The translations under genes were made by a program, and so were the position numbers. From Thiocapsa bogorovii (GTDB lineage: Bacteria; Pseudomonadota; Gammaproteobacteria; Chromatiales; Chromatiaceae), in NCBI RefSeq assembly GCF_021228795.1, contig NZ_CP089309.1:4151501-4215500 (forward strand): a stretch of 64,000 nt of DNA, read 5' to 3'. The notes under the pieces are model-generated. The model saw nothing but the letters and a program-made list of their open reading frames with translations. It was not told where the DNA came from and searched no databases. Shown here in pieces: positions 6,171 through 59,590 of this stretch (position 1 is the first letter of the stretch; each line of letters begins with the position of its first letter).

Positions 6171-6653
6171 CGGGTGGAACTCCCGCCTGGGTAATCGCTA
6201 GCCACGAGCCCGGTATCGAGCCTTGCGGCGCGGCTGGTAACAGCCGCGTCGATGCGTAGGCACGACAGCAGGCGAGGTGCAAAGGTAACGGGTGGAGCCG
6301 ACCTTGAAGGTGTTGAGCCCCGAAACATTTGGTCGGGAGTGCCGACGGGTTTGTCCCTCCGGCAGGCAACAGTCCGTGTCGCGTCATGGCGAGTGGCACG
6401 GGTACTCCCCGGGTCCGAGGCCGTATCGAGCCTGACATCGAGAGCACGCGGTAACCAGGGAGATCCGTGTATCGGTCCGTCGGAGGCGGGCACCCGCGAA
6501 CAAGTGTCAAAAGCGAGGACGCGGGCGGCGATGCGCGGAAGTCGGAGCCACCTATAGTAGCGTTGATACCCGGTAATGCGGGCGGAGCGAAGGGGTGGCG
6601 GTTTGAGACAACGCAAGAGTGAAACACGGCCCTACACCGAGAGGACTCTGACC

Positions 6654-28568: not shown

Positions 28569-30303
28569 CCCGGATGTTTCATAAACCGACACAGCCGACA
28601 CTGGCCTCGCGGATTTGCGCGGCGCTGGGCGTCACCGAGGGCGATGACCGGGACGCCGCGGGGGTTGAATGGTGGAAATACCGAGCGGCAACGGGCTTGA
28701 TCAACGGGGCACGAGTAGTTTTGTCGCCGCGCAGGCGTACGATGCCCTGCCCGAGGTGGGCATAGTCGTCGTGCGCGTGCTGAAATCCCCGTGCGGGGAT
28801 GTATGTGCGTCTAGGCGGGCGCCGCCCGGGGCTGCGCGTTGAAGAGCCTCTCGGTGACCTGCTGCAACAGCGTCTTGACCGGACAGCTCGAGGGCAGGTG
28901 CAGGCGCACGCGGTCTTTGTACTGCACCACGCGCACGGCGAGCTTGAACAGTTTGATGATCACGGTGGCAGGCTGGGCGTTGGCCAGTTCCGTGCCGACG
29001 AGGACCTCGGTGCGCAGCGTTTGGTGCAAGACGTAAGCGGCGCAGGAGAAGAACAAGCGCATCTGATTGGCCAAGAAGGTGCTGTCGGAAGTGCGATCGC
29101 TGGCCAGATCGTTCTTGATCATTTTGATGAAGTTCTCGTCCTGGCCGCGCGCGCAGTACAGATCGCGGTAGACGCACTCGGGACTGGGCAAGTCCAAGGA
29201 GGTGACGACGAAGCGGAGGTTGTCGCCGCGCGCCGTCACCTCGGCTTTGAGGATGGTCCGACACGCGCCGGGCCAGGAACCGGCACGGTAGTCAACCTCG
29301 TGGTAGGTGCGGGTCCGCTCGGGTACGTCGGCGTCGGCGCGCCGGGCGTTCTCGATGCGCAGCGCATGGAGCTTGCGGGCGTCGGCCAAGAACGGCTCGG
29401 CCCGTGGCGTGAGAGCCCGGTTACCCGCCAGGCCGAAGATGAAATCCGTCAACGGATCGGCCATCGCCAAGGCCATCAACTCGGGGTTGGAGAAGTGTCC
29501 GTCGCCGCGCAGGATGATGCGTGTGCGTGGCCACGCGGCCCGCAGCCGCTTGAGCACGCGCTTGAGGATCATCGCGTTCTCGGCGCCGGTGGGGCGCTTG
29601 CCGGGACGCAGCACCGCGGTGATGAACTTCCCCGAGAGGCCCTCGAAGAGAAACAGCGGCAAGTAGCAATGGTTGCCGTAGTGATGATTGTAGAACGCGA
29701 ACTCCTGCTGGCCATGGGTGGCGTCTTCGGAGTGGTCCATATCGAGCACGATCACCTGCGGCGCCTTCGGGTAGCTGGCGATGAAGGCCTCGACGAAGGC
29801 CTGCGCCATGCGGTAGAGGTCGCGCGCGCCGACCCCATTCTCCAAACGCGAGAAGGTCGGCCCGCTGGCCAGGTCCGTCGTCGCATCCAGCGGCTTGCGC
29901 TCCAGCCCCAGCTTGAACAGCGCATCACGGCGCAGCGCATTGGCGTCGTTGCCGTCTTCGTAAGCACAGGCGATCTGGTAGACCCGTTGCGCGATCAGCT
30001 CACGCATCGGATGGGTGGTGTAGGACGGATGGCGCCAATCATCGATCGCTGCGCTCAACCGCTCGGTCAGGCCGATCTGCCGATCAACCCCGCGCAGAAT
30101 CATGGGGCCAAAGTCAGACGACATGGCGCCGCCGTCGAAGTCGCCGCGGACCGTGAAACCGGCGACCGGGGGAAAACGCAGCTGTTCCGGGGTAGACTCG
30201 GGCATGGGCGACCTCGTTTAGCTTCTTCCGAAGCGTTCTTGGCGGAACAGCCATTTTATCAATGGGTTGAACGAGAGTCGCCCTTTTTTATGAAATATTC
30301 GGG
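28569..30303 (-). mobile_element. IS1380-family element A, copy 1
   Basis: This 1,735-bp element is bounded by CCCGGATGTTTCATAAA on the left and, inverted, CCCGAATATTTCATAAA on the right. The target duplication is CTAA (28565-28568 and 30304-30307). It carries one intact transposase gene. An apparently identical copy of the same length lies at 54244-55978. It is inserted in intergenic DNA between the Mla-like operon and the EamA gene. Confidence 0.95.
28811..30205 (-). CDS. IS1380-family transposase, element A copy 1
   Basis: This 464-residue DDE transposase has IS1380 landmarks: 'TFSRLENGVGARDLYRM', 'VIVLDMDHSEDATHGQQEFA' with the first catalytic Asp, 'YLPLFLFEGLSGKFITAVLR', 'RIILRGDGHFSNPELM' with the second Asp, and 'YCARGQDENFIKMIKNDLAS' with the Glu. 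No lesion is seen. It is unlike the element B transposase in sequence, so two separate IS1380 lineages coexist here. Confidence 0.94.
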   Translation of the reverse strand: MPESTPEQLRFPPVAGFTVRGDFDGGAMSSDFGPMILRGVDRQIGLTERLSAAIDDWRHPSYTTHPMRELIAQRVYQIACAYEDGNDANALRRDALFKLGLERKPLDATTDLASGPTFSRLENGVGARDLYRMAQAFVEAFIASYPKAPQVIVLDMDHSEDATHGQQEFAFYNHHYGNHCYLPLFLFEGLSGKFITAVLRPGKRPTGAENAMILKRVLKRLRAAWPRTRIILRGDGHFSNPELMALAMADPLTDFIFGLAGNRALTPRAEPFLADARKLHALRIENARRADADVPERTRTYHEVDYRAGSWPGACRTILKAEVTARGDNLRFVVTSLDLPSPECVYRDLYCARGQDENFIKMIKNDLASDRTSDSTFLANQMRLFFSCAAYVLHQTLRTEVLVGTELANAQPATVIIKLFKLAVRVVQYKDRVRLHLPSSCPVKTLLQQVTERLFNAQPRAAPA

Positions 30304-49440: not shown

Positions 49441-50335
49441 ATTCCTCAATTCCGGGGACGGTTTACCTATTCCCGTTCCAGGGCCTCAAAGAGGTCATGA
49501 GTGTGAGAGTCTGGTCGCGCTGCCTTCGGCCCGGGTTTTTTCGCTTGAGCGGACGTCGGAGGCGCTGCTCCAGATCTTCGACAAAGGAGTTCGGACCGAG
49601 CGGTCGGCCGGTGCTGGTATGTGCGCGCAGCAGGTCAGCGATGTCCGGCCCGTCAGGCTCGCCGATGAAGCGTTCCCAGTCCGAAACCAACTCCAAGAGC
49701 GGGTGCACGCTGACGAGCTCATCGTCCGCTGCGGCCAGATGGGCGCGGGCGCTCGACCACGGCCAGTCCTGCGGCCGTGCACAGAGCCGCGCGCGGACGG
49801 GATTTCGCTCAACATACCTGGCAGCGGCGATGAGATGCCGCTCGTCCATCACGAACGAGTGAAAACGTTCCTGCCAAAGGTGCCCTCGCCAGCCTTCCCG
49901 GAAATTGATCATGCGGGTGTAGCGACGATGCGCCTCGCCCAGCGCTTCACGCAACCCGAGCTCATCGCCCGGGACCAGGATCAGATGCACATGATTCGGC
50001 ATGAGACAGTAGCCGAGCACCTGCGTGCCGCACGCGCGACAGGATGTCGACAGCAATCGCCGATACTCGGCGTAGTCCTCATCGCCAAAAAAGGTCCGCT
50101 GCCGTCGATTACCGCGTTGTGTCACATGATGTGGAAGCCCGGGAACAACCACTCTCGGAAGTCTTGCCATGGATCGGTGGGCCCCTCGTCACGGAAACGT
50201 CACTTCGTGTTCTAACCGATCCGAGGCGTCTCGTCGAGAGAATTGAGTAAACTGTCCCCGGAACTCCAACTCACAACTCACTAGAATACGTGGCCTTGCC
50301 AGGCCGCACTGTCCCCGGAACTCGAACTCACTCAA
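49441..50335 (-). mobile_element. RAYT unit with flanking REP sequences
   Basis: A REP-associated tyrosine transposase gene lies between inverted REP-like sequences. On the left (49441-49480, read inverse) and right (50235-50260) the shared core is GTAAAC(C/T)GTCCCCGGAA. A second right-hand unit (50285-50325) contains a GGCC-hairpin that also occurs at 6131-6170. This is the expected layout for a RAYT and its REP substrates. Confidence 0.75.
49463..50170 (-). CDS. rayT: REP-associated tyrosine transposase (RAYT)
   Basis: A 235-residue Y1-family (HUH) single-strand transposase. The N-terminus 'RVVVPGLPHHVTQRGNRRQR' is typical. The HUH metal motif is 'CLMPNHVHLILVP' and the catalytic tyrosine lies in 'LGEAHRRYTRMINFREG'. 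'LWQERFHSFVMDERHLIAAA' and 'RYVERNPVRARLCARP' follow. RAYTs nick and join REP hairpins. The frame is intact and its REP partners are adjacent, so it may be active. Confidence 0.93.
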   Translation of the reverse strand: MARLPRVVVPGLPHHVTQRGNRRQRTFFGDEDYAEYRRLLSTSCRACGTQVLGYCLMPNHVHLILVPGDELGLREALGEAHRRYTRMINFREGWRGHLWQERFHSFVMDERHLIAAARYVERNPVRARLCARPQDWPWSSARAHLAAADDELVSVHPLLELVSDWERFIGEPDGPDIADLLRAHTSTGRPLGPNSFVEDLEQRLRRPLKRKNPGRRQRDQTLTLMTSLRPWNGNR

Positions 50336-50513
50336 GCGACGGAGTTGCCGTCCGTGACAGGGTGGCGTCAGATCTCCCGATTCTCGGACAGACCGAGGGG
50401 GCGTGAATTGAGTTTGCCCCCTTTGCCGCTCCCTGCCGACTCCGAAGCCCGCATTGTCGTCCTGACGGGATGTGCAGTAGCATGGCCATCAACCTAGCCA
50501 CCAGTGTAAGCCC

Positions 50514-50804
50514 ATGGCCGAGACATCGATTGCCGAGGCAAGGAACCGGCTCACCCACCTCATCTACCAGGCCGAGCGCGGCGAGACGGTGCACATTACG
50601 CGCCGCGGTCGACCCGTTGCAGTGCTGCTCTCGGAAGCCGAGTACGGTCGCCTGAGCCGAGGTGCGGTCCGGCCAACGTTCTGGGACGCAATTCGGGAGA
50701 TGCGCGCGGATCCCGAATTCGAACCCATCGATCTGCAGTCCGAAGAGATTGAATCTTGGCGCGATCGCGCAGCACGGGGCCGCGGCTTCGAGTGGTCCGA
50801 ATGA
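50514..50804 (+). CDS. Phd/YefM-family antitoxin
   Basis: A 96-residue protein with the Phd start 'AETSIAEARNRLTHLIYQAE' and 'TVHITRRGRPVAVLLSEAEY', then a charged tail ending 'RGRGFEWSE' for toxin binding. It overlaps the toxin gene by ATGA. It is the fourth toxin-antitoxin antitoxin in the window with an intact frame when those at 3827, 5684 and 59571 are counted with it. Confidence 0.88.
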   Translation: MAETSIAEARNRLTHLIYQAERGETVHITRRGRPVAVLLSEAEYGRLSRGAVRPTFWDAIREMRADPEFEPIDLQSEEIESWRDRAARGRGFEWSE

Positions 50805-51238
50805 AATATTTGTTGGACACCAACGTGGTCTCCGAGCCGATCAGAGCAAGGCCCTCCGAGCCTGTCCTGGCCGGCATCGAGGCGCACGCAACGGAACTGG
50901 CCGTCTCGGCCATCTCCTGGCAGGAGATGCACTACGGGCTTGAGCGTCTGCCGCCAGGCGCACGTCGGGATCGGATCCGCGCTTACCTGGAAGAGCGCGT
51001 TCACCCCACCCTGCCCATCCTGCCCTTCGACGCGGCGGCCGGCGAATGGCAGGCGCGCGAACGAGCACGTCTGGAAACGATCGGGCGCACGCCTTCCTAC
51101 GCCGACAGCCAGATCGCGGCCATCGCCGCCGTCAATGGGTTGGTTCTCGTCACCCGCAACACCGAGGACTTCGCGGACTTCTCCGGCCTTATCGTCGAGA
51201 ACTGGTTCGATCCGAAAACGGCACTGGGGTCTGAGTGA
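50801..51238 (+). CDS. vapC: VapC/FitB-type PIN-domain toxin
   Basis: A 145-residue PIN protein: 'KYLLDTNVVSEPIRARPSEP' (first Asp), 'VSAISWQEMHYGLERLPPG' (Glu), 'YADSQIAAIAAVNGL' (Asp) and 'LVTRNTEDFADFSGL' (Asp). This is the FitB-like group of VapC toxins. Coupled to the Phd-type antitoxin. It lies just beyond the degenerated distal end of the integron array. Confidence 0.88.
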   Translation: MKYLLDTNVVSEPIRARPSEPVLAGIEAHATELAVSAISWQEMHYGLERLPPGARRDRIRAYLEERVHPTLPILPFDAAAGEWQARERARLETIGRTPSYADSQIAAIAAVNGLVLVTRNTEDFADFSGLIVENWFDPKTALGSE

Positions 51239-51351
51239 TGGCCCGCTGCGCCTATTGGAGGCTCAACGCCTCACCCGTGCCGCCGCGATTGGCCCCGACT
51301 TGGAGCCGAATAAAGGCCGGGCTCAATTAAATCCGGCAGAAGGGGGAGAAT

Positions 51352-51462
51352 CTAAGTGAGCCTGGCCCCTTTCCTCCACTTGATGCCGTTGTAGATGAAC
51401 GCTCCTGAAATATCTAACTCGATACCGAGCGCGAAGTTCTTCCACCAATCTTCTGATTTCAT
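51352..51462 (-). pseudogene. Integron cassette 3, truncated gene start
   Basis: Directly after attC2 on the minus strand an ATG (51462) opens 'KSEDWWKNFALGIELDISGA' then 'FIYNGIK', resembling the N-terminus of a hypothetical protein family common in integron cassettes. After about 28 codons the sequence changes character and stops at 51352-51354. The start lies about 25 bp after the attC, the normal spacing for a cassette gene. The rest of the cassette has been lost. Confidence 0.6.
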
Positions 51463-51483
51463 GCTAGAGGCTGAGCCTTTGGA

Positions 51484-51539
51484 TCATAACGCTTAGCTCA
51501 GCGGCGAGTTTACGAGTCCGCTGCAGCTACTTGTTGTGC
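51484..51539 (-). other. attC: attC site of the AIPR cassette (attC2)
   Basis: On the minus strand: GCACAAC, spacer AAGT, left arm AGCTGCAGCGG, an 11-base loop, right arm CCGCTGAGCT, spacer AAGC, then GTTATGA. The arms pair except for one extra G in the left arm, the extrahelical base that gives attC its strand preference. The GCACAAC end is the exact complement of GTTGTGC at the other end of the same cassette (53215-53221), as expected if the cassette once was a circle. The AIPR stop codon lies inside the site. Confidence 0.85.
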
Positions 51540-53194
51540 GAACAGCTCGCCAAACGATTCCATTCTTCCACGACTAACGAGTTTTTCGTGTGTCGCCGCA
51601 ATCTCATGAGCCAAAGTATTACACCAATGCTCATCTCTTAATTTCCCGCGGTAATCGAAATCATCCGCAAGTTGATCAATTCCCGCATTAAGATCAGTTA
51701 TGACTTCATCTAACAATTTTCCAATCGTAGAAGCGAAAGCATTCATTGCCCCTTCATCGTGTACATATAGTTCTGGCGCATCAAGCACATCAGAGGCCGT
51801 GTCATCACTCTCCAGGATGAGTCTTACAATGTACAAAATGAAAAATCTCGTCAAAATATATTTTGCAAACAACTCATTGCTTATGGAGGCTTGATGTTCC
51901 TGTATAGTCGTAGCTATTACATCGCAAAGAACTATTTTGTGAGCAGTCACACTAGGCCTACCAAATAAATCTGAATGCTTATCTTCAAATATCTGGTATT
52001 TTCTATGTGTTGACCATGGCGTCTTTAAGTCAAAAGACATGAGGTATTGACCTGCGAGTTCGTTGCTAATTACTGAAACACCCCTGGCATCTTCTCCCCT
52101 TTTTATTTCAAAAAAGAATCGGCCATTGTAAAGTGCTTCAAACTCGTTCTGAAGCCGGATTTGTATTTGATTGTTTGACTTAAAATCGCGAGCCTTTACG
52201 CCATTTTGATTGTTTGAAATGCGGGTAATCATTTCGGACAATGTCGATGTGGGAGGGGTCTGAATGAACTTCGTTAAAATCCGCAAGTTGTCAGTTATGT
52301 GGCGACTATTCTTATATAAGGCATTGAGACTTTGGCACCCATTTACAACAAAATATTTATCTACCGTAATTTCGTCATCGGTCCTATCTACAGATTCTGC
52401 CATAATTGTGATCCCGTTATGAAATAGAGGAAACAATTTATGTTTTGAATCATCTGTGATGCTTTTTGCAATATCTCGATTTACTTGTGTTTTTCCTAGG
52501 GGACCACGAACATTAAAGGCGAATATTTCTTGATTAGCTATACCATCAAGCCCTACTAACTCGCTGGCCTTTATAGGAGCAATTATTGCGCTGTGATCTG
52601 CATCAACAATATATTCAGATGTTTCATATCCGGAGATATTGAATACAGCAGGCGGTGCTGTTGGGAGGTTTCTATCAGATGAAACAAATGTGCCTTCAAG
52701 ATCACTCCTGCCAATAAAACGTATGCTGTCAGTACCAGCTAAAAAGCTGGAACCATTTTGATCCAGTTCACTGTTGCATATGAAGTATCCCACAACGTCA
52801 TATTCAGCAACATGTTTTTTAAATCTAACCTTTCTATCAACTTAGCCACTTGGGCGTCCCCCGCAGTGGCCAGCAAATTATCAATTGCCTCTCTTGTCTC
52901 AAGTTGAGATAGAGTGCCTTGAAACTCTCTTAATGCCTTATCCCCAACTGTAGCCACCGCTTTTTGTGAAATTTTACTTTGATAGACCTCTATTACGTTC
53001 GCCTCTGCATTCAAATAGATGCCGTCAATACCCTTGTCACCGCTTTGATCACAAACTGCATCAATAGACTCCAATGAATCCAGACGCAAGTAGTTGGTGA
53101 AATACCAAATAAGAAACGAGGCACTCTCACTTCGCTTTGAAGCCAAATATGGCTCAATCAAAGACAGGATTTTTGGATACGACAGATCGATCAT
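51510..53194 (-). pseudogene. AIPR-family abortive-infection protein, frameshifted
   Basis: ATG 53194 begins a 150-residue N-terminal part containing a PD-(D/E)XK-like pattern ('DKGIDGIYLNAEANVIEVYQ' then 'SKIS'). Near 52795 the frame changes; the second part, 427 residues from 52793, has the AIPR core 'FAFNVRGPLGKTQVNRDIAK', 'HKLFPLFHNGITIMAESVD', 'FVVNGCQSLNALYKNSRH', 'NNQNGVKARDFKSNNQIQIR'. Joined length (about 575) equals a normal AIPR protein. AIPR proteins were named for lactococcal abortive phage resistance. Base composition is much richer in A+T than neighbours, typical of cassette DNA. A sequencing error at the shift cannot be excluded. Confidence 0.85.
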
Positions 53195-53214
53195 ATTGTT
53201 TCCTTATTTTTTAC

Positions 53215-53308
53215 GCACAACGTCAAGGCTGGCCCGACCGCCCGTTGCCGCGCCGGAAGCGAAGCGACGGCGCGGCAACGGGCGGTCGGGCCGAGCCGTT
53301 TGTTGGGC
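53215..53308 (-). other. attC: attC site of cassette 1 (attC1)
   Basis: On the minus strand: GCCCAAC, spacer, left arm GGCTCGGCCCGACC..., loop, right arm ...GGTCGGGCCAGCC, spacer TTGAC, then GTTGTGC. The main stem is 24 perfect base pairs (53231-53254 with 53269-53292) around a 14-base loop. One extra C is present in the left arm relative to the right. This is the standard attC layout (RYYYAAC, extrahelical base, GTTRRRY-like end). The next cassette's gene starts 20 bp later. Confidence 0.9.
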
Positions 53309-53457
53309 TAATTGGTTCGCATGGGGCTCGCTGCAACCTGGGTTATCCCATTCGCCTTCCGGCGTGAGCTTACCTTGGCAGCCTGCCGAAAAAATTAGTG
53401 AATTTAGTAAACTGTCGCCGTAATTGCTTGCCGGCGTAATTGCATTCATGCTGACGG

Positions 53458-54219
53458 CTAACCTTTAAAGCCTCGACCTTCCACAATGATGCGAGGTAAG
53501 AAAAGTCTATCTTGCTCAAAATATCCTTCGCGCCATAGTTCATCCAAATTTTGAGAAATTTCCTCCGAAGCACTAGCATCACTGCGAAACCCGAACAACG
53601 GTTCTCGACTCAATATAGATGGCGAGATGGAGTCCTGATTGCTCCACGTGCGATGGTAAGTCACCCCATATTCGCTTCTACCTTTCATTCCACCTCCGTG
53701 GTGGAATACTTGCAGAACACAGGGCTCTGGCAGTCCGCTGGCACTCTTTCCGACAATTACAAGCCTCTCTCCTCTGATCATTGCCTGATACTCGTTCTTC
53801 ACGGGTTTTCCACGATTATCTCGAAAGTTACAGCCGAAGCTCATTCCCCCATTTGCTTTATCTACTTTTATGTCGTACCTCGCGACTTTCCAGAGCGTTG
53901 CCTCTTTTCTTGCGCTTACTGTATAGCAATACCATGTGCCGGAGAGTTGCGCCGCCTGCTCGGGTTCCGAAGTCATACTGGCAAATCCTCCGTTGGATCG
54001 ATATTGCTTCTCAAGTATTGCTGACAGTTCTTCGAAGTCTGTTCTACCAGCGAACTTCCCGGCGAGTAGGCTTATTCCGACACCTAGGATTGCACCTCCA
54101 AAAGCATTGAGAAAACTTGAGTATTGAACTACTCTCGCATCTGTGGCGATGAAGACAACGCATGCGCCTGAGAAAATTATCAGAAAGTATACCGCGCTCG
54201 CTCTTAGGTCTCGCGTCAT
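53458..54219 (-). CDS. Two-TM protein with cytosolic beta-rich domain (cassette 1)
   Basis: A 253-residue protein: two hydrophobic helices ('AVYFLIIFSGACVVFIAT', 'FLNAFGGAILGVGISLLAG') within residues 8-55, a short helix ('FEELSAILEKQYRS'), then a beta-rich domain starting 'AAQLSGTWYCYTVSARKEAT' and continuing to 'VFHHGGGMKGRSEYGVTYHR'. I know no exact family. The layout recalls the 2TM plus beta-barrel effectors of some CBASS systems (Cap15), which is inference from shape only. The ATG lies 6 bp after the ancestral stop of the methylase gene, so the two were co-translated before IS1380 inserted upstream. It is now separated from its promoter by the IS. Confidence 0.7.
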   Translation of the reverse strand: MTRDLRASAVYFLIIFSGACVVFIATDARVVQYSSFLNAFGGAILGVGISLLAGKFAGRTDFEELSAILEKQYRSNGGFASMTSEPEQAAQLSGTWYCYTVSARKEATLWKVARYDIKVDKANGGMSFGCNFRDNRGKPVKNEYQAMIRGERLVIVGKSASGLPEPCVLQVFHHGGGMKGRSEYGVTYHRTWSNQDSISPSILSREPLFGFRSDASASEEISQNLDELWREGYFEQDRLFLPRIIVEGRGFKG

Positions 54220-54243
54220 CTTGTTTCAAGAAGGTGTTACTAG

Positions 54244-55978
54244 CCCGGATGTTTCATAAACCGACACAGCCGACACTGGCCTCGCGGATTTGCGCGGCGC
54301 TGGGCGTCACCGAGGGCGATGACCGGGACGCCGCGGGGGTTGAATGGTGGAAATACCGAGCGGCAACGGGCTTGATCAACGGGGCACGAGTAGTTTTGTC
54401 GCCGCGCAGGCGTACGATGCCCTGCCCGAGGTGGGCATAGTCGTCGTGCGCGTGCTGAAATCCCCGTGCGGGGATGTATGTGCGTCTAGGCGGGCGCCGC
54501 CCGGGGCTGCGCGTTGAAGAGCCTCTCGGTGACCTGCTGCAACAGCGTCTTGACCGGACAGCTCGAGGGCAGGTGCAGGCGCACGCGGTCTTTGTACTGC
54601 ACCACGCGCACGGCGAGCTTGAACAGTTTGATGATCACGGTGGCAGGCTGGGCGTTGGCCAGTTCCGTGCCGACGAGGACCTCGGTGCGCAGCGTTTGGT
54701 GCAAGACGTAAGCGGCGCAGGAGAAGAACAAGCGCATCTGATTGGCCAAGAAGGTGCTGTCGGAAGTGCGATCGCTGGCCAGATCGTTCTTGATCATTTT
54801 GATGAAGTTCTCGTCCTGGCCGCGCGCGCAGTACAGATCGCGGTAGACGCACTCGGGACTGGGCAAGTCCAAGGAGGTGACGACGAAGCGGAGGTTGTCG
54901 CCGCGCGCCGTCACCTCGGCTTTGAGGATGGTCCGACACGCGCCGGGCCAGGAACCGGCACGGTAGTCAACCTCGTGGTAGGTGCGGGTCCGCTCGGGTA
55001 CGTCGGCGTCGGCGCGCCGGGCGTTCTCGATGCGCAGCGCATGGAGCTTGCGGGCGTCGGCCAAGAACGGCTCGGCCCGTGGCGTGAGAGCCCGGTTACC
55101 CGCCAGGCCGAAGATGAAATCCGTCAACGGATCGGCCATCGCCAAGGCCATCAACTCGGGGTTGGAGAAGTGTCCGTCGCCGCGCAGGATGATGCGTGTG
55201 CGTGGCCACGCGGCCCGCAGCCGCTTGAGCACGCGCTTGAGGATCATCGCGTTCTCGGCGCCGGTGGGGCGCTTGCCGGGACGCAGCACCGCGGTGATGA
55301 ACTTCCCCGAGAGGCCCTCGAAGAGAAACAGCGGCAAGTAGCAATGGTTGCCGTAGTGATGATTGTAGAACGCGAACTCCTGCTGGCCATGGGTGGCGTC
55401 TTCGGAGTGGTCCATATCGAGCACGATCACCTGCGGCGCCTTCGGGTAGCTGGCGATGAAGGCCTCGACGAAGGCCTGCGCCATGCGGTAGAGGTCGCGC
55501 GCGCCGACCCCATTCTCCAAACGCGAGAAGGTCGGCCCGCTGGCCAGGTCCGTCGTCGCATCCAGCGGCTTGCGCTCCAGCCCCAGCTTGAACAGCGCAT
55601 CACGGCGCAGCGCATTGGCGTCGTTGCCGTCTTCGTAAGCACAGGCGATCTGGTAGACCCGTTGCGCGATCAGCTCACGCATCGGATGGGTGGTGTAGGA
55701 CGGATGGCGCCAATCATCGATCGCTGCGCTCAACCGCTCGGTCAGGCCGATCTGCCGATCAACCCCGCGCAGAATCATGGGGCCAAAGTCAGACGACATG
55801 GCGCCGCCGTCGAAGTCGCCGCGGACCGTGAAACCGGCGACCGGGGGAAAACGCAGCTGTTCCGGGGTAGACTCGGGCATGGGCGACCTCGTTTAGCTTC
55901 TTCCGAAGCGTTCTTGGCGGAACAGCCATTTTATCAATGGGTTGAACGAGAGTCGCCCTTTTTTATGAAATATTCGGG
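54244..55978 (-). mobile_element. IS1380-family element A, copy 2
   Basis: The same 1,735 bp as at 28569-30303, here flanked by CTAG (54240-54243 and 55979-55982). It is inserted four codons before the end of the tetrapyrrole-methylase gene of the integron cassette. Transposase and terminal repeats are intact. The apparent identity of the two copies suggests recent movement. Confidence 0.95.
54486..55880 (-). CDS. IS1380-family transposase, element A copy 2
   Basis: A 464-residue transposase with the same protein sequence as that at 28811-30205, including 'LDMDHSEDATHGQQEF' and 'GQDENFIKMIKNDLAS'. Full length, no lesion. Confidence 0.94.
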   Translation of the reverse strand: MPESTPEQLRFPPVAGFTVRGDFDGGAMSSDFGPMILRGVDRQIGLTERLSAAIDDWRHPSYTTHPMRELIAQRVYQIACAYEDGNDANALRRDALFKLGLERKPLDATTDLASGPTFSRLENGVGARDLYRMAQAFVEAFIASYPKAPQVIVLDMDHSEDATHGQQEFAFYNHHYGNHCYLPLFLFEGLSGKFITAVLRPGKRPTGAENAMILKRVLKRLRAAWPRTRIILRGDGHFSNPELMALAMADPLTDFIFGLAGNRALTPRAEPFLADARKLHALRIENARRADADVPERTRTYHEVDYRAGSWPGACRTILKAEVTARGDNLRFVVTSLDLPSPECVYRDLYCARGQDENFIKMIKNDLASDRTSDSTFLANQMRLFFSCAAYVLHQTLRTEVLVGTELANAQPATVIIKLFKLAVRVVQYKDRVRLHLPSSCPVKTLLQQVTERLFNAQPRAAPA

Positions 55979-56741
55979 CTAGAAGAGTTCCAGATTTGTT
56001 TACGGGCGAAAGCTGCTTTAACTCCGACACCAGCCCAACAACAGAGATATTGCGACCATCCCTTGAATTCGCTAACTGATAGAAGGAAAATTTCGCCTTC
56101 GGTCCGTATGCTGCGAAAAGCACCCTGCACAACTCAGAGTAATTTTCCGTAGCCTCGCCGCTACTAACTATCATCCTGCCGTCGCTTTCAGTGCCCATTT
56201 GAAATATGGCAACAGGGATAGAACCGTCTAACACTTGGGGGTTTTTGACAAGAAAGCCTTCGGTGTACACCTGGAGGCCTGCTTGGTTAATGTTGAGGCG
56301 TGACAGATGCAATATGCCGTCCAGGGAGCTAGTCGAGTTATAACTGTATACAGGCACCCCGCGCGCATCACACTCGCGTTCAATTTGTTGAGATATATTG
56401 TTCAAGAAAAGCACGTTTCCGTTCATTGCGAGAGCCGCCGCGCCACCATTATAGTTGTCCATCACGGCGCGCATAATCGAGCAATGTATGCTTTCCAGGT
56501 AATGCCCGGATTCATACAGATAGTTTAGGCATTCCACCTTCCCATTGATGTTTCGTATGTGGTCTTCCGTTTGACGACCATCGCACAGCAGGAATACGCG
56601 CTGGCACTTCTGCAATACGACTAACGCAGCGACTGGAATATCCCAAAATTCGTTAACCCCTAAGCCAATCAAGTGGATGCCTGCCCCCACGTCAAGGGAG
56701 CAGGCTTCTTGCCAATAATCAGTCTGCGTGATATTGACCAT
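55893..56741 (-). CDS. Tetrapyrrole-methylase-fold SAM methyltransferase (cassette 1), 3' end replaced by IS
   Basis: About 254 native residues begin at ATG 56741. The fold signature is near the start: 'AGIHLIGLGVNEFWDIPVAA' (G-x-G SAM loop), 'CQRVFLLCDG', 'DNYNGGAAALAMNGNVLFLN', 'GVPVYSYNSTSSLDGIL', 'PVAIFQMGTESDG'. This is the tetrapyrrole (corrin/porphyrin) methylase superfamily, which includes borosin peptide N-methyltransferases. No cobalamin or siroheme genes are nearby; a 61-residue peptide gene lies 10 bp upstream. IS1380 inserted after '...KSGTLL': the native end VTPS and stop (54226-54228) are displaced and 28 IS-encoded residues are appended, so the enzyme may still work. Confidence 0.8.
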   Translation of the reverse strand: MVNITQTDYWQEACSLDVGAGIHLIGLGVNEFWDIPVAALVVLQKCQRVFLLCDGRQTEDHIRNINGKVECLNYLYESGHYLESIHCSIMRAVMDNYNGGAAALAMNGNVLFLNNISQQIERECDARGVPVYSYNSTSSLDGILHLSRLNINQAGLQVYTEGFLVKNPQVLDGSIPVAIFQMGTESDGRMIVSSGEATENYSELCRVLFAAYGPKAKFSFYQLANSRDGRNISVVGLVSELKQLSPVNKSGTLLARIFHKKGRLSFNPLIKWLFRQERFGRS

Positions 56742-56751
56742 CACTCAGACG

Positions 56752-56937
56752 TTATTTGTTGTGTGCATTGTTCTTCTGCGACGCATCGGGAATCTGTCCC
56801 GAAACACGTGGACTAGCACCGCCGGGCTCTTGCGACAATTTAAAACGGAAAAGTGACCGGTCGAGATTAGCTATGGTCATAACTGCAGTTTGGTTTGGGC
56901 CTAAGGATCGCGTGGAGTTGGTGTTGGTGGGGGTCAT
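56752..56937 (-). CDS. 61-residue peptide, candidate substrate of the adjacent methylase
   Basis: A strong ribosome site (GGAGGA, 9 bases before) precedes ATG 56937. The peptide has a Thr/Asn-rich start ('TPTNTNSTRSLGPNQTAV'), a central segment 'MTIANLDRSLFRFKLSQEPG' and a polar tail 'SQKNNAHNK'. It ends 10 bp before the methyltransferase start. No family is recognised. Its size and position match precursor peptides of split borosin or other RiPP systems, which is inference. The same frame extends to a GTG at 57066 (about 104 residues), only 30 bp from the cassette edge, but the internal ribosome site favours the short form. Confidence 0.6.
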   Translation of the reverse strand: MTPTNTNSTRSLGPNQTAVMTIANLDRSLFRFKLSQEPGGASPRVSGQIPDASQKNNAHNK

Positions 56938-57091
56938 CTTCAAAGTTCCTCCGGAGTTAGGTGTATGGTGAGTGCGCGTGGGATTAGGATCAGCCGCGTC
57001 GCGGAGAGAGCGGGGTCGCAATCGCGATCGGTGGCTGGTGGTCTGAGCCGATACATGCTCCATCACATCGTGTGCCCGTCCCGTTTGCGGA

Positions 57092-57253
57092 GGCCAACAG
57101 TTGATTAGACAGAGTGTCGGTCGGGTGAGATAGGCAGATTCTGTCTATCTCAGTCGGAGTATATTCTGCCTAGCCGATGCGTTGCCGACTCGCCGAACGT
57201 CTCGTAGCGTGTACACTTGCCATACACGGCATCTTGCTCGGAGACGCTAGCAG
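57092..57253. other. attI: Predicted attI region and intI/cassette promoter region
   Basis: The gap between intI and cassette 1 should contain attI. A junction-like GTTGGCC (minus strand, 57092-57098) differs by one base from the GTTGGGC predicted from the attC1 left end GCCCAAC. A palindrome GAGATAGGCAGA / TCTGTCTATCTC lies at about 57128-57152 and could be an integrase-binding or regulatory site. No attI consensus can be used, as attI varies with each integrase. Confidence 0.5.
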
Positions 57254-58927
57254 ATGGGAGACGTTCAGACAACAAGGGCGACATCGGTCGATCGTTTCTG
57301 GGACCGCTTCGTTGATCTGGCTCGGGAAAACAGTGTCAAGGACACCGCCCCGCGATGGTATGTCCGGCATGCGGAGCGCTACTTGAAGGCGCTTTCCGGT
57401 AAACGCCTCGCCGAGCATACGCGCGAGGATGTAACCGGCTATCTGGAGTCGGTGGGGAGGATAGACGGAATCGAGGATTGGCAGTTCCGGCAGATTGTTG
57501 ACGCCGTTCGGATGTTGCTGTCGACCGCGAACGCCAAGGTCGTTGGCGAGGTCGACTGGGCCTACTGGCGCGATTCGGCCCGAACCTTGGCACCGGACCA
57601 TCCGACCATCGCTCGGGAAATGCCGGCGCGGGTTGGCGCATCACCGGACCCAGAGTCGGTCTCGGGGGCCCGCTTCAAGGAGAAGCGAAACCCGCCGTCC
57701 GCTTTGGACGAGGTGCGTCGGTCGCACCCTCGGCTGATGGAACGGCTGGCGGCGGAGATCCGCCGGCGGAAGTACTCGATCCGCACCGAAAAGACCTACG
57801 AGTCTTGGGTGTGTCGCTTCATCCTGTTCTGCGGCGGGCGCGATCCTTCGGAGATCGGCGCGGATCGCATCGTTGCATTTCTGGAGGACCTTGCGGTTCG
57901 CGGCCAGGTCTCGTCCAGCACGCAGAATCAGGCGTTGAATGCCTTGGTTTTTTCTGTTCAAGAAGGTGCTGGGTCAGACCCTAGCCGAGCTGGGACACTT
58001 CACGCGGGCCAAGCGGCCGCGACGGCTGCCGGTGGTGCTGAGCCGCGGCGAGGTCGCCCGCCTGTTGGAACAGCTCGACGGCATGCCGCATCTGATGACC
58101 GCCTTGCTCTACGGCACCGGCATGCGGTTGATGGAGTGCGTTCGGCTCCGAATTCAGGATGTAGATTTCCAGTATCACCAGATTGTCGTCCGGGACGGAA
58201 AGGGCCAGAAGGACCGTGTGGTTCCCTTGCCGAAGCGGTTGGAGCAGCCGTTGACGGAACACCTGGAGAAGGTGCGGGCGCTGCATCGGCAAGACTTGGA
58301 GCAAGGCTATGGCGAGGTATTTCTGCCGGATGCCTTGGCGCGCAAGTGGCCGAAGGCTCCGCGCGAATGGATCTGGCAATATGTGTTCCCGAGCGGCAGG
58401 CTGTCGGTCGATCCCCGCAGCGGCAAGACACGCCGCCATCACCTGCACGAGAACGGGCTCCAGAAGGCCGTGAAGCGGGCCGCTCAGATTTCGGGAATCG
58501 CCAAGAAGGTCAACTGCCATTCGCTGAGGCACTCCTTTGCGACGCATTTGCTTGAGACCGGTTACGACATCCGCACCGTTCAGGAGCTGCTCGGTCACGC
58601 GGATGTGTCGACGACCATCATCCTAGATTCGGCAGCTGAACGGCCCCTGGAGTGCGTCCCGCGCGGTGTCCGGCAAGGCGCAACGAGGCGGCGTAGTGGT
58701 TCTACGACAACGAGTTGCAACGCCGTCGGGCGCCGCGCGGGGCGTGCTCCAGGGGTCGTAGCGGCCTTCACCCAACCGGTGAGCCACTTGACAAGCGCGA
58801 TCGTTAAAGCCGTCAAGACCTTGCATGAAGCACGAAGCGGTCAACTGCCGAATCTAGGATGACCTATACCCATGTCCTCAATCGCGGTGGGCAGGGCGTG
58901 CTGAGTCCGCTGGGTGGCCTGTTGTAG
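57254..58927 (+). pseudogene. intI: Integron integrase IntI, frameshifted and interrupted
   Basis: A tyrosine recombinase with the IntI-specific region. N-terminal SAM-like and core parts are read from ATG 57254 ('KYSIRTEKTYESWVCRFILF', '[12 protein letters not shown]'). In a run of six T at about 57950 the frame shifts by one base; the continuation has '[20 protein letters not shown]', '[20 protein letters not shown]' (first Arg), the IntI patch '[20 protein letters not shown]' and '[20 protein letters not shown]', '[20 protein letters not shown]' (H-x-x-R) and '[13 protein letters not shown]'. A 237-bp palindromic element (58622-58858) then separates the last part '[20 protein letters not shown]', which holds the catalytic tyrosine. 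It is divergent from the cassette array, as in all integrons. Confidence 0.95.
58622..58858. repeat. 237-bp palindromic MITE-like element in intI
   Basis: Perfect 14-bp terminal inverted repeats CCTAGATTCGGCAG. Internally, CCCCTGGAG..CCCGCGCGG pairs with CCGCGCGGGG..CTCCAGGGG, giving a long second stem. The flanks share AT (possible 2-bp duplication); removing the element and one AT restores the intI reading frame ('[12 protein letters not shown]'). It encodes no protein. No other copy was seen in the window. Confidence 0.85.
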
Positions 58928-59200
58928 CGCTCGCTCTCTGCCGGCTGCGTTCCATCCCAGCGGTCCGCGTGTTTCTAGTCGGCAGCGCGGAAGAATCTTG
59001 CGATCTCTTTCAGAGCCATGCCGGTATGGGCCTCTGAAGAGGCGGTCGGGGGTGTTTGAGTGGATGATGCCTGGTGCGATCGTTGGAATCAGCGGCGGCG
59101 GACGCCGGGATTCGGTTTCGCTGAGCCCGGTCTGGGGGGTCTTCCGGAACCGACGACGGTACAGCACTCGGGCGTCTGGGTCGTTCCCGAATCGTAGCGC

Positions 59201-59590
59201 TCAAACCACTACAATCCCCTTCGCTTGAAGTCTCTGCGCGAGCTTGATCAGCTTGTCATCGAAGGTTGCAAAGTCGATTGCCTTTGTGCTGCTGGCGACA
59301 TGCAGCGCATCGGCAAAATCCATACCCTGCTCATGCCAATCGAGCGCCTTGGCGACAACGCCTATCGTTTCGACCTCGACCTGTTGAAGGCCGATGACTT
59401 TTCGCAACGCGCTCACGATGGTCTCACGGGAGAGCTTGTAGGAGAATCTGAGCACCCACTCCGTTTCCAGCAGCACCGTCTTGGTGAGGAAAATACGCTC
59501 GCGCTCGAATAGCGCGACGGCTCTCGGACTCTGCTCGGGATCGTCATTGGCGACAATCCGCACGACGACGTTAGTATCGACCGCGAGCAT
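59201..59590 (-). CDS. vapC: PIN-domain toxin paired with an AbrB-type antitoxin
   Basis: A 129-residue PIN protein from ATG 59590: 'LAVDTNVVVRIVANDDPEQS' (first Asp), 'LLETEWVLRFSYKLSRETIV' (Glu), 'HEQGMDFADALHVASSTKAI' (Asp) and 'DFATFDDKLIKLAQ' (Asp). This is the VapC group paired with SpoVT/AbrB antitoxins. It overlaps the antitoxin gene by about 20 bp. The longer frame to 59680 belongs to antitoxin sequence in another frame. Confidence 0.87.
   Translation of the reverse strand: MLAVDTNVVVRIVANDDPEQSPRAVALFERERIFLTKTVLLETEWVLRFSYKLSRETIVSALRKVIGLQQVEVETIGVVAKALDWHEQGMDFADALHVASSTKAIDFATFDDKLIKLAQRLQAKGIVVV

Follow-up and report, generated by a model that had tools for sequence, protein, structure and literature searches.

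How is a defence gene expressed when its coding sequence is divided between two reading frames? The question is raised by an AIPR gene carried on an integron cassette of Thiocapsa bogorovii, in a window (the whole stretch of DNA analysed) of 64,000 nucleotides (contig NZ_CP089309.1, positions 4,151,501 to 4,215,500). The reading that we favour, with a probability of roughly 0.6, is that a programmed -1 ribosomal frameshift resembling that of IS1 expresses this cassette-borne AbiU/AIPR-type defence gene. The features on which the argument rests are collected in Table 1.

Table 1. Features of the split AIPR gene, its cassette and the neighbouring array, in positions of the window.
Feature	Position	Strand	Basis or remark
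Integron cassette with the split AIPR gene, 1731 bp	51490..53220	-	G/TT at both borders, read from the sequence; attC sites folded
Zero-frame ORF, 151 aa	52739..53194	-	First part of the predicted PD-(D/E)XK domain and a short tail; TAG at 52741-52739
Candidate slippery heptamer A_AAA_AAC in zero-frame register, frame switch	52814..52820	-	Same in the L040 copy, none in the L042 copy
-1 frame past the heptamer (434 codons plus stop)	51510..52814	-	Rest of the predicted nuclease domain and AIPR domain; PF10592 5.3e-32, PADLOC AbiU 1.1e-34
Purine-rich GATAGAAAGG, possible Shine-Dalgarno-like stimulator	52829..52838	-	AAAGG 8 nt before the A-run, by eye
attC of the AIPR cassette (GCACAAC ... GTTATGA)	51484..51539	-	Sequence and folding
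attC of the preceding cassette, at the 5' side of the AIPR cassette	53208..53312	-	Folding
ORF of the preceding cassette, 253 aa	53458..54219	-	No match in Pfam, NCBIfam or PADLOC
Integron integrase gene, broken (two frames and an inserted element)	57254..58890	+	TIGR02249 342 bits, cut-off 265

The first-pass annotation described the gene as a single cassette of 1.73 kb whose stop codon lies inside its own attC, and both statements were borne out. The cassette borders, as read from the sequence, are G/TTGTGC at 53221/53220 and G/TTATGA at 51490/51489 (the slash marks the border), there is an attC on either side, and the TAA stop (51512-51510) falls within the loop of the gene's own attC. This attC, folded as 51484-51545, forms a hairpin with an extrahelical (bulged) base at -11.4 kcal/mol and z -1.26, a weak energy that 17 of 200 shuffles equal. 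The preceding attC folds very strongly (-50.9 kcal/mol, z -9.19, with 0 of 200 shuffles as good). The cassette is rich in A+T, having a G+C content of 0.41 (measured over 51488-53217) vs. 0.64 for the whole window. The locus therefore carries the marks of an integron cassette, namely G/TT borders and hairpin attC sites with bulged bases, together with an integron integrase adjoining the array, though a broken one.

Defence genes have been reported on cassettes of Xanthomonas, among them restriction-modification, abortive-infection, Kiwa and Shedu cassettes (PMC12444791, whose reference list names Darracq 2025, Getz 2025 and Kieffer 2025). The present locus is similar in that an AIPR gene lies between attC sites beside an integron integrase, but AIPR is not named in the main text of that paper. 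No AIPR cassette and no frameshift-dependent cassette was found in the literature searched at the level of titles and abstracts.

The presence of an AIPR gene in two frames, likewise claimed earlier, was confirmed: the frame running from 53194 to 52739 is followed by one that ends at 51510 and scores 112.2 bits against Pfam AIPR (PF10592), far above the gathering cut-off of 25. The C part also matches the AbiU profile of PADLOC (PDLC02357) over profile positions 241-520 of 537, at the E-value given in Table 1, in a profile library that gives no curated cut-off for AbiU. The zero-frame ORF alone has no Pfam match and reaches only 0.0039 with the AbiU profile. Membership of the MZA defence system as MzaE was rejected, the score being 20.9 bits vs. 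an NCBIfam cut-off of 1050. By its C part the gene thus resembles the AIPR family and lactococcal AbiU; what sets it apart is the division into two frames, whereas 46 of 50 other AIPR genes in the phylum sample have one open frame of at least 512 aa. Among the four other loci with short frames, two (L034 and L035) continue upstream in-frame past a stop, one (L038) ends at a contig end, and the fourth (G097) has a frame of 463 aa.

The break had been placed near 52795. The frames turned out to join instead at A_AAA_AAC (52820-52814), where the zero frame reads ..TTA AAA AAC ATG.. (52822-52811), a register that suits slippage by -1; from the heptamer onward the -1 frame reads HVAEYDVVGYFICN... 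As is expected of a programmed -1 site, an X_XXY_YYZ heptamer in zero-frame register stands where the overlapping frames join. It is the sole in-register heptamer in the gene among the 21 efficient patterns of PMC4066793; T_TTA_AAA, of the general slippery form, overlaps it in the window but is not among the 21 and is absent from the related copy L040 described below. Of the earlier statement that the frames overlap by 55 bp, the two overlapping minus-strand frames stand, and the figure does not, having been counted from a GTG that is absent in L040. Since the loss of a base in an A-run creates such a heptamer automatically, the motif is not independent evidence, and the weight of the argument falls on conservation.

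The same gene adjoins an integron integrase on a 3143-bp contig of Acidithiobacillus montserratensis GG1-14 (L040), where the integrase keeps a single frame up to the contig end. At 89% nucleotide identity, this copy agrees with the window in its AAAAAAC, in its zero-frame stop and in its -1 frame, and the two C frames are 92% identical. Between the two copies, dN/dS is 0.104 (95% bootstrap 0.041-0.209, dS 0.45) over the 126 codons before the heptamer and 0.074 (0.048-0.110, dS 0.51) over the 434 codons after it. By these ratios, both sides of the heptamer have been under purifying selection since the two copies diverged (dS about 0.5). In the overlap, a short stretch of 24-26 codons, dN/dS is 0.093 for the -1 frame vs. 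0.761 for the zero frame, which places the switch of the frame under selection at or next to the heptamer. Diverged homologues thus share the split and the heptamer, and both frames are under selection, as a programmed site would have it; this applies to the window and L040 copies only.

An assembly or sequencing error in the window is hardly credible as the source of the split. Frame breaks do strike single records, and the AIPR gene of the E. coli plasmid p13P484A-1, split into two frames (L050, 1818-3517), is an example; among 60 E. coli records, the 14 further rows listed are one base longer there and carry a single AIPR annotation, so that this plasmid split looks like an isolated error or a fresh mutation. 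In the case of T. bogorovii, however, the same split is found in an independent draft genome, that of L040, and the window genome is one contig of 5.65 Mb with an estimated completeness of 99.99.

A third copy lies on the IMG/VR contig 3300031111_000470 (L042). It is partial, ending at the contig end after 458 residues, and at 91% identity it reads through in one open frame, its A-run being interrupted in such a way that none of the 21 slippery heptamers is left. It matches both Pfam AIPR and PADLOC AbiU; its 5' border looks cassette-like by eye, and its 3' end is beyond the contig. The synonymous distance to L042 (0.79-0.91) exceeds that between the window and L040, which suggests that the last two are sisters. 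Rooting of the three copies with the outgroups L011 and L012 had only 5 of 44 varying sites to use. The contig opens with a phage-tail-like protein (L042 1-2226; Pfam Phage-tail_3 1.8e-7, Laminin_G_3 7.8e-17), and the AIPR cassette family may travel with prophages.

The identical split in L040, the dN/dS values on both sides of the heptamer and the one-frame gene without heptamer in L042 together make a read error or a long-dead gene an unlikely explanation. One of the two options offered by the first-pass annotation, a dead gene, is accordingly disfavoured by the shared split and the purifying selection. Simulation of neutral decay agrees for old losses and sets a limit for young ones: of 2000 simulated -1 frames, none remained free of stops at 0.25 substitutions per site, vs. 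1260 at 0.01, so that a very recent loss would be compatible with the lack of stops.

This leads to the main rival, which we consider unlikely: two independent recent losses of one base at the same A-run, both copies being young pseudogenes. A-runs are mutation hot spots, L042 proves that a one-frame form exists, the integrase of the array in the window genome is broken too, and the simulated frames at 0.01 substitutions per site mostly survive. The same event would be needed twice, however, and there seems to have been little time for neutral decay, since dN/dS over the 331 C codons shared by all three copies is 0.057 between the window and L040, close to the 0.045 and 0.046 of each vs. L042. 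Moreover, the 434 C codons contain no further break in either of the two split copies. The other runs of six equal bases in the gene (one more in the window, four in L040) all remain in frame.

Phase variation, in which changes in the length of the A-run within populations would switch the defence gene on and off, appears quite improbable. On/off switching would keep dN/dS low, and the break does fall at the only A-run of at least six in the window's gene. Six A's are nevertheless short for slipped-strand switching, there are no tandem repeats at 50000-59500, and both copies with the run have it at equal length, the in-frame L042 having no such run (each species is represented by one copy).

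What the two frames encode was addressed with a structure model of L042. The model built from 23 homologues, which superseded a poor one from 7 sequences (pLDDT 65), has a mean pLDDT of 87.1 and a pTM of 0.57. Its residues 1-174 align to the nucleases AF1548 (Z 10.7), MspJI (9.3), AspBHI (8.9) and FokI (8.9), and more weakly to Avs4 (7.4), Card1 (6.7) and HamA (6.2); the stretch from about residue 195 to residue 333 is matched by the ParB/Srx-type proteins PadC (Z 6.5) and ParB (6.1), with the proviso of the alignment tool that a Z under 8 may reflect merely a common arrangement. The best Foldseek E-value for the model was only 9e-3; a PDB sequence search with L042 gave no match, and one with a profile gave two chance-level matches only (E 0.48 and 0.83). 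D57 is kept in 21, Q72 in 20 and K74 in 19 of the 23 homologue rows, and we take these residues to be the catalytic D ... (E/Q)xK motif of PD-(D/E)XK nucleases. Fold and catalytic residues, as seen in the L042 model and the 23-row alignment, thus both point to an N-terminal PD-(D/E)XK nuclease domain (1-174) ahead of a ParB/Srx-like AIPR domain, a confidently predicted architecture.

The predicted domain shares the PD-(D/E)XK fold with MspJI, AspBHI, FokI, Avs4, Card1 and HamA but differs from them in being fused to a ParB/Srx-like domain and in having 9-16% identity to them. A paper of 2012 attributes an N-terminal HEPN domain to AIPR proteins (PMC3506569). The subfamily of the window and L042, as modelled, does not look HEPN-type at its N-terminus.

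The frame switch comes after residue 126, up to which the zero-frame ORF corresponds to the one-frame copy; the short tail to the TAG follows. Strands 133-140 and 158-161 of the nuclease domain lie beyond this point and are missing from the zero-frame product; on the model, a complete nuclease is therefore expected only of the fusion.

The other option of the first-pass annotation, that the two parts are made as separate proteins, with an internal start or translational coupling providing the C part, is very improbable. The C frame can be opened by GTG 52793 in the window and by ATG 1617 in L040; these starts, however, differ in place, no ribosome-binding site was seen by eye before the C-frame starts near the junction, and conservation of the -1 frame extends upstream of the two. 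The next start of the window's C frame is a TTG about 300 nt beyond the zero-frame stop, and the first start codon common to both copies is a TTG 126 codons beyond the heptamer. The split, in addition, cuts the predicted nuclease domain. Ahead of the zero-frame start at 53194, a good ribosome-binding site was seen by eye.

Programmed -1 frameshifting at such a motif has a precedent. IS1 uses an A6C motif for -1 frameshifting to make its transposase (PMC12428005). The present gene resembles insA-insB' of IS1 in the heptamer AAAAAAC, the -1 direction and the pairing of a short zero-frame with a longer fused product. It differs in that the long product is a putative defence nuclease and not a transposase, that slippage is predicted here, and that no convincing downstream structure accompanies the heptamer. 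In E. coli, A_AAA_AAC belongs to the patterns that give more than 0.10% frameshifting without stimulators, although re-pairing from AAC to AAA is thought to be less tolerated (PMC4066793). From these two points, little fused nuclease and much short product would be expected. Low-level frameshifting has been argued, for transposases, to shield hosts from harmful proteins of mobile elements (PMC3711429). The words "AIPR" and "abortive" are absent from the main texts of PMC3711429 and PMC4066793. In the literature searched, mostly abstracts with few subscription papers and with passages of PMC11100668 and PMC9009780, there was no earlier report of a frameshift-dependent AIPR or abortive-infection gene.

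As for stimulators, the AAAGG upstream of the heptamer is kept in L040 and also in the unshifted L042, and hence is not specific. A downstream stem begins about 1 nt after the heptamer. Folding of the downstream 52 nt gave z -1.67 for the window and -0.87 for L040; with 79 nt the values were -2.43 and -1.16, and -2.14 for the unshifted L042. A downstream pseudoknot or hairpin stimulator is unconvincing, given the modest z in the window and L040 and the similar z in L042.

It is decidedly improbable that the frame is changed by transcriptional realignment, in which RNA polymerase and not the ribosome slips on the A-run. In favour of this mechanism, both kinds of slippage can operate on poly-A slippery sequences (PMC3711429). 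Against it, runs longer than six are usually required for efficient slippage during transcription. We infer that slippage does occur at the heptamer and that it is ribosomal.

Further copies of the split gene were sought widely. In the phylum sample 47 of 398 genomes match, the own genome included, with 35% identity for the best other one, and in the order sample 2 of 210 match at E 1e-20, again including the own. At E 1e-30, the class of the window yielded 1 of 369 genomes, its own, and no other copy; the class of L040 also yielded 1 of 369, its own, in a sample that seems to be largely the same as the first and is not independent of it. In the genus of L040, 4 of 17 genomes match and only L040 is close. 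The scan of the genome-contig collection confirmed one locus, L040. A protein search of plasmids gave 45 records, none of which reaches 60% identity, and a DNA search gave none; phages gave 16 matching records, all under 60% identity. The viral-contig collection gave one locus, L042, the N-part query returning the same contig, and a heptamer-pattern scan of viral contigs gave 0. Across the genome, plasmid, phage and viral-contig collections scanned, no close copies were found beyond L040 and L042.

Several observations weigh against the frameshift reading. Only two shifted copies are known, those of the window and L040, L042 being unshifted. Before the heptamer, dN/dS between the two shifted copies (0.104, as above) is higher than that of each vs. 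L042 (0.058 and 0.049), with overlapping intervals. The attC of L040 folds poorly (z -0.68), and the integrase of the array is itself frameshifted in the window genome. The two integrase frames join near a T-run at about 57948-57953, and near the 3' end of the gene there is an insertion of about 239 bp (58621-58859) whose 15-bp ends match. A near full-length one-frame integrase match is found in 3 of 11 genus genomes, the own included (G506, G508, G512); the T-run was sought in L051-L053 with no match. Because its integrase is broken, the array in the window genome may no longer exchange cassettes.

The rest of the array and the window offer several further observations. The ORF of the preceding cassette has a hydrophobic N-terminus by eye. 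The first cassette (55893-56744, minus strand) encodes a 283-aa protein with a weak tetrapyrrole methylase match (NCBIfam YabN 3.8e-6, far below the cut-off; Pfam TP_methylase 0.0068, below the cut-off), and a transposase-like ORF stands directly after it; a megablast of plasmids with the neighbouring transposase-like ORF gave no match. ORFs of equal length (464 aa) lie at 54486-55880, within the cassette array, and at 28811-30205, both on the minus strand; they are perhaps copies of one transposase, presumably IS1380-like. After the AIPR attC, the start of another, seemingly truncated cassette with a short ORF by eye is found at 51370-51480 (minus strand). At 6177-6423 (plus strand) the group II intron model RF02005 of Rfam is matched with 139.8 bits.

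According to the frameshift reading that we prefer, ribosomes would start at 53194, and most of them would keep to the zero frame as far as the stop codon at 52741-52739 and yield the 151-aa protein with its 126 genuine residues. A minority would slip back by one base at A_AAA_AAC and continue to 51510. The fused product of about 560 aa would contain the complete PD-(D/E)XK nuclease and, after it, the ParB/Srx-like AIPR domain, and this fused protein is probably the active form, presumably one that defends against phage. As a rule, cassettes have no promoter of their own, and a throttle placed inside the gene suits a cassette for this reason: it would travel with the cassette and keep a dangerous nuclease scarce. 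Control of this kind over a defence nuclease, within a promoterless cassette, would be a novel way to render a toxic defence protein harmless on its passage between hosts. It would also be a warning that working systems can be overlooked when annotation pipelines drop split defence genes as pseudogenes.

It is also conceivable, though improbable, that the frameshift is a sensor. An infection that disturbs Lys-Asn decoding at AAA_AAC, be it by tRNA cleavage, loss of tRNA modification or ribosome pausing, would then raise slippage and complete the nuclease core only in infected cells. If true, this would be a translation-gated abortive-infection switch contained within one promoterless mobile cassette.
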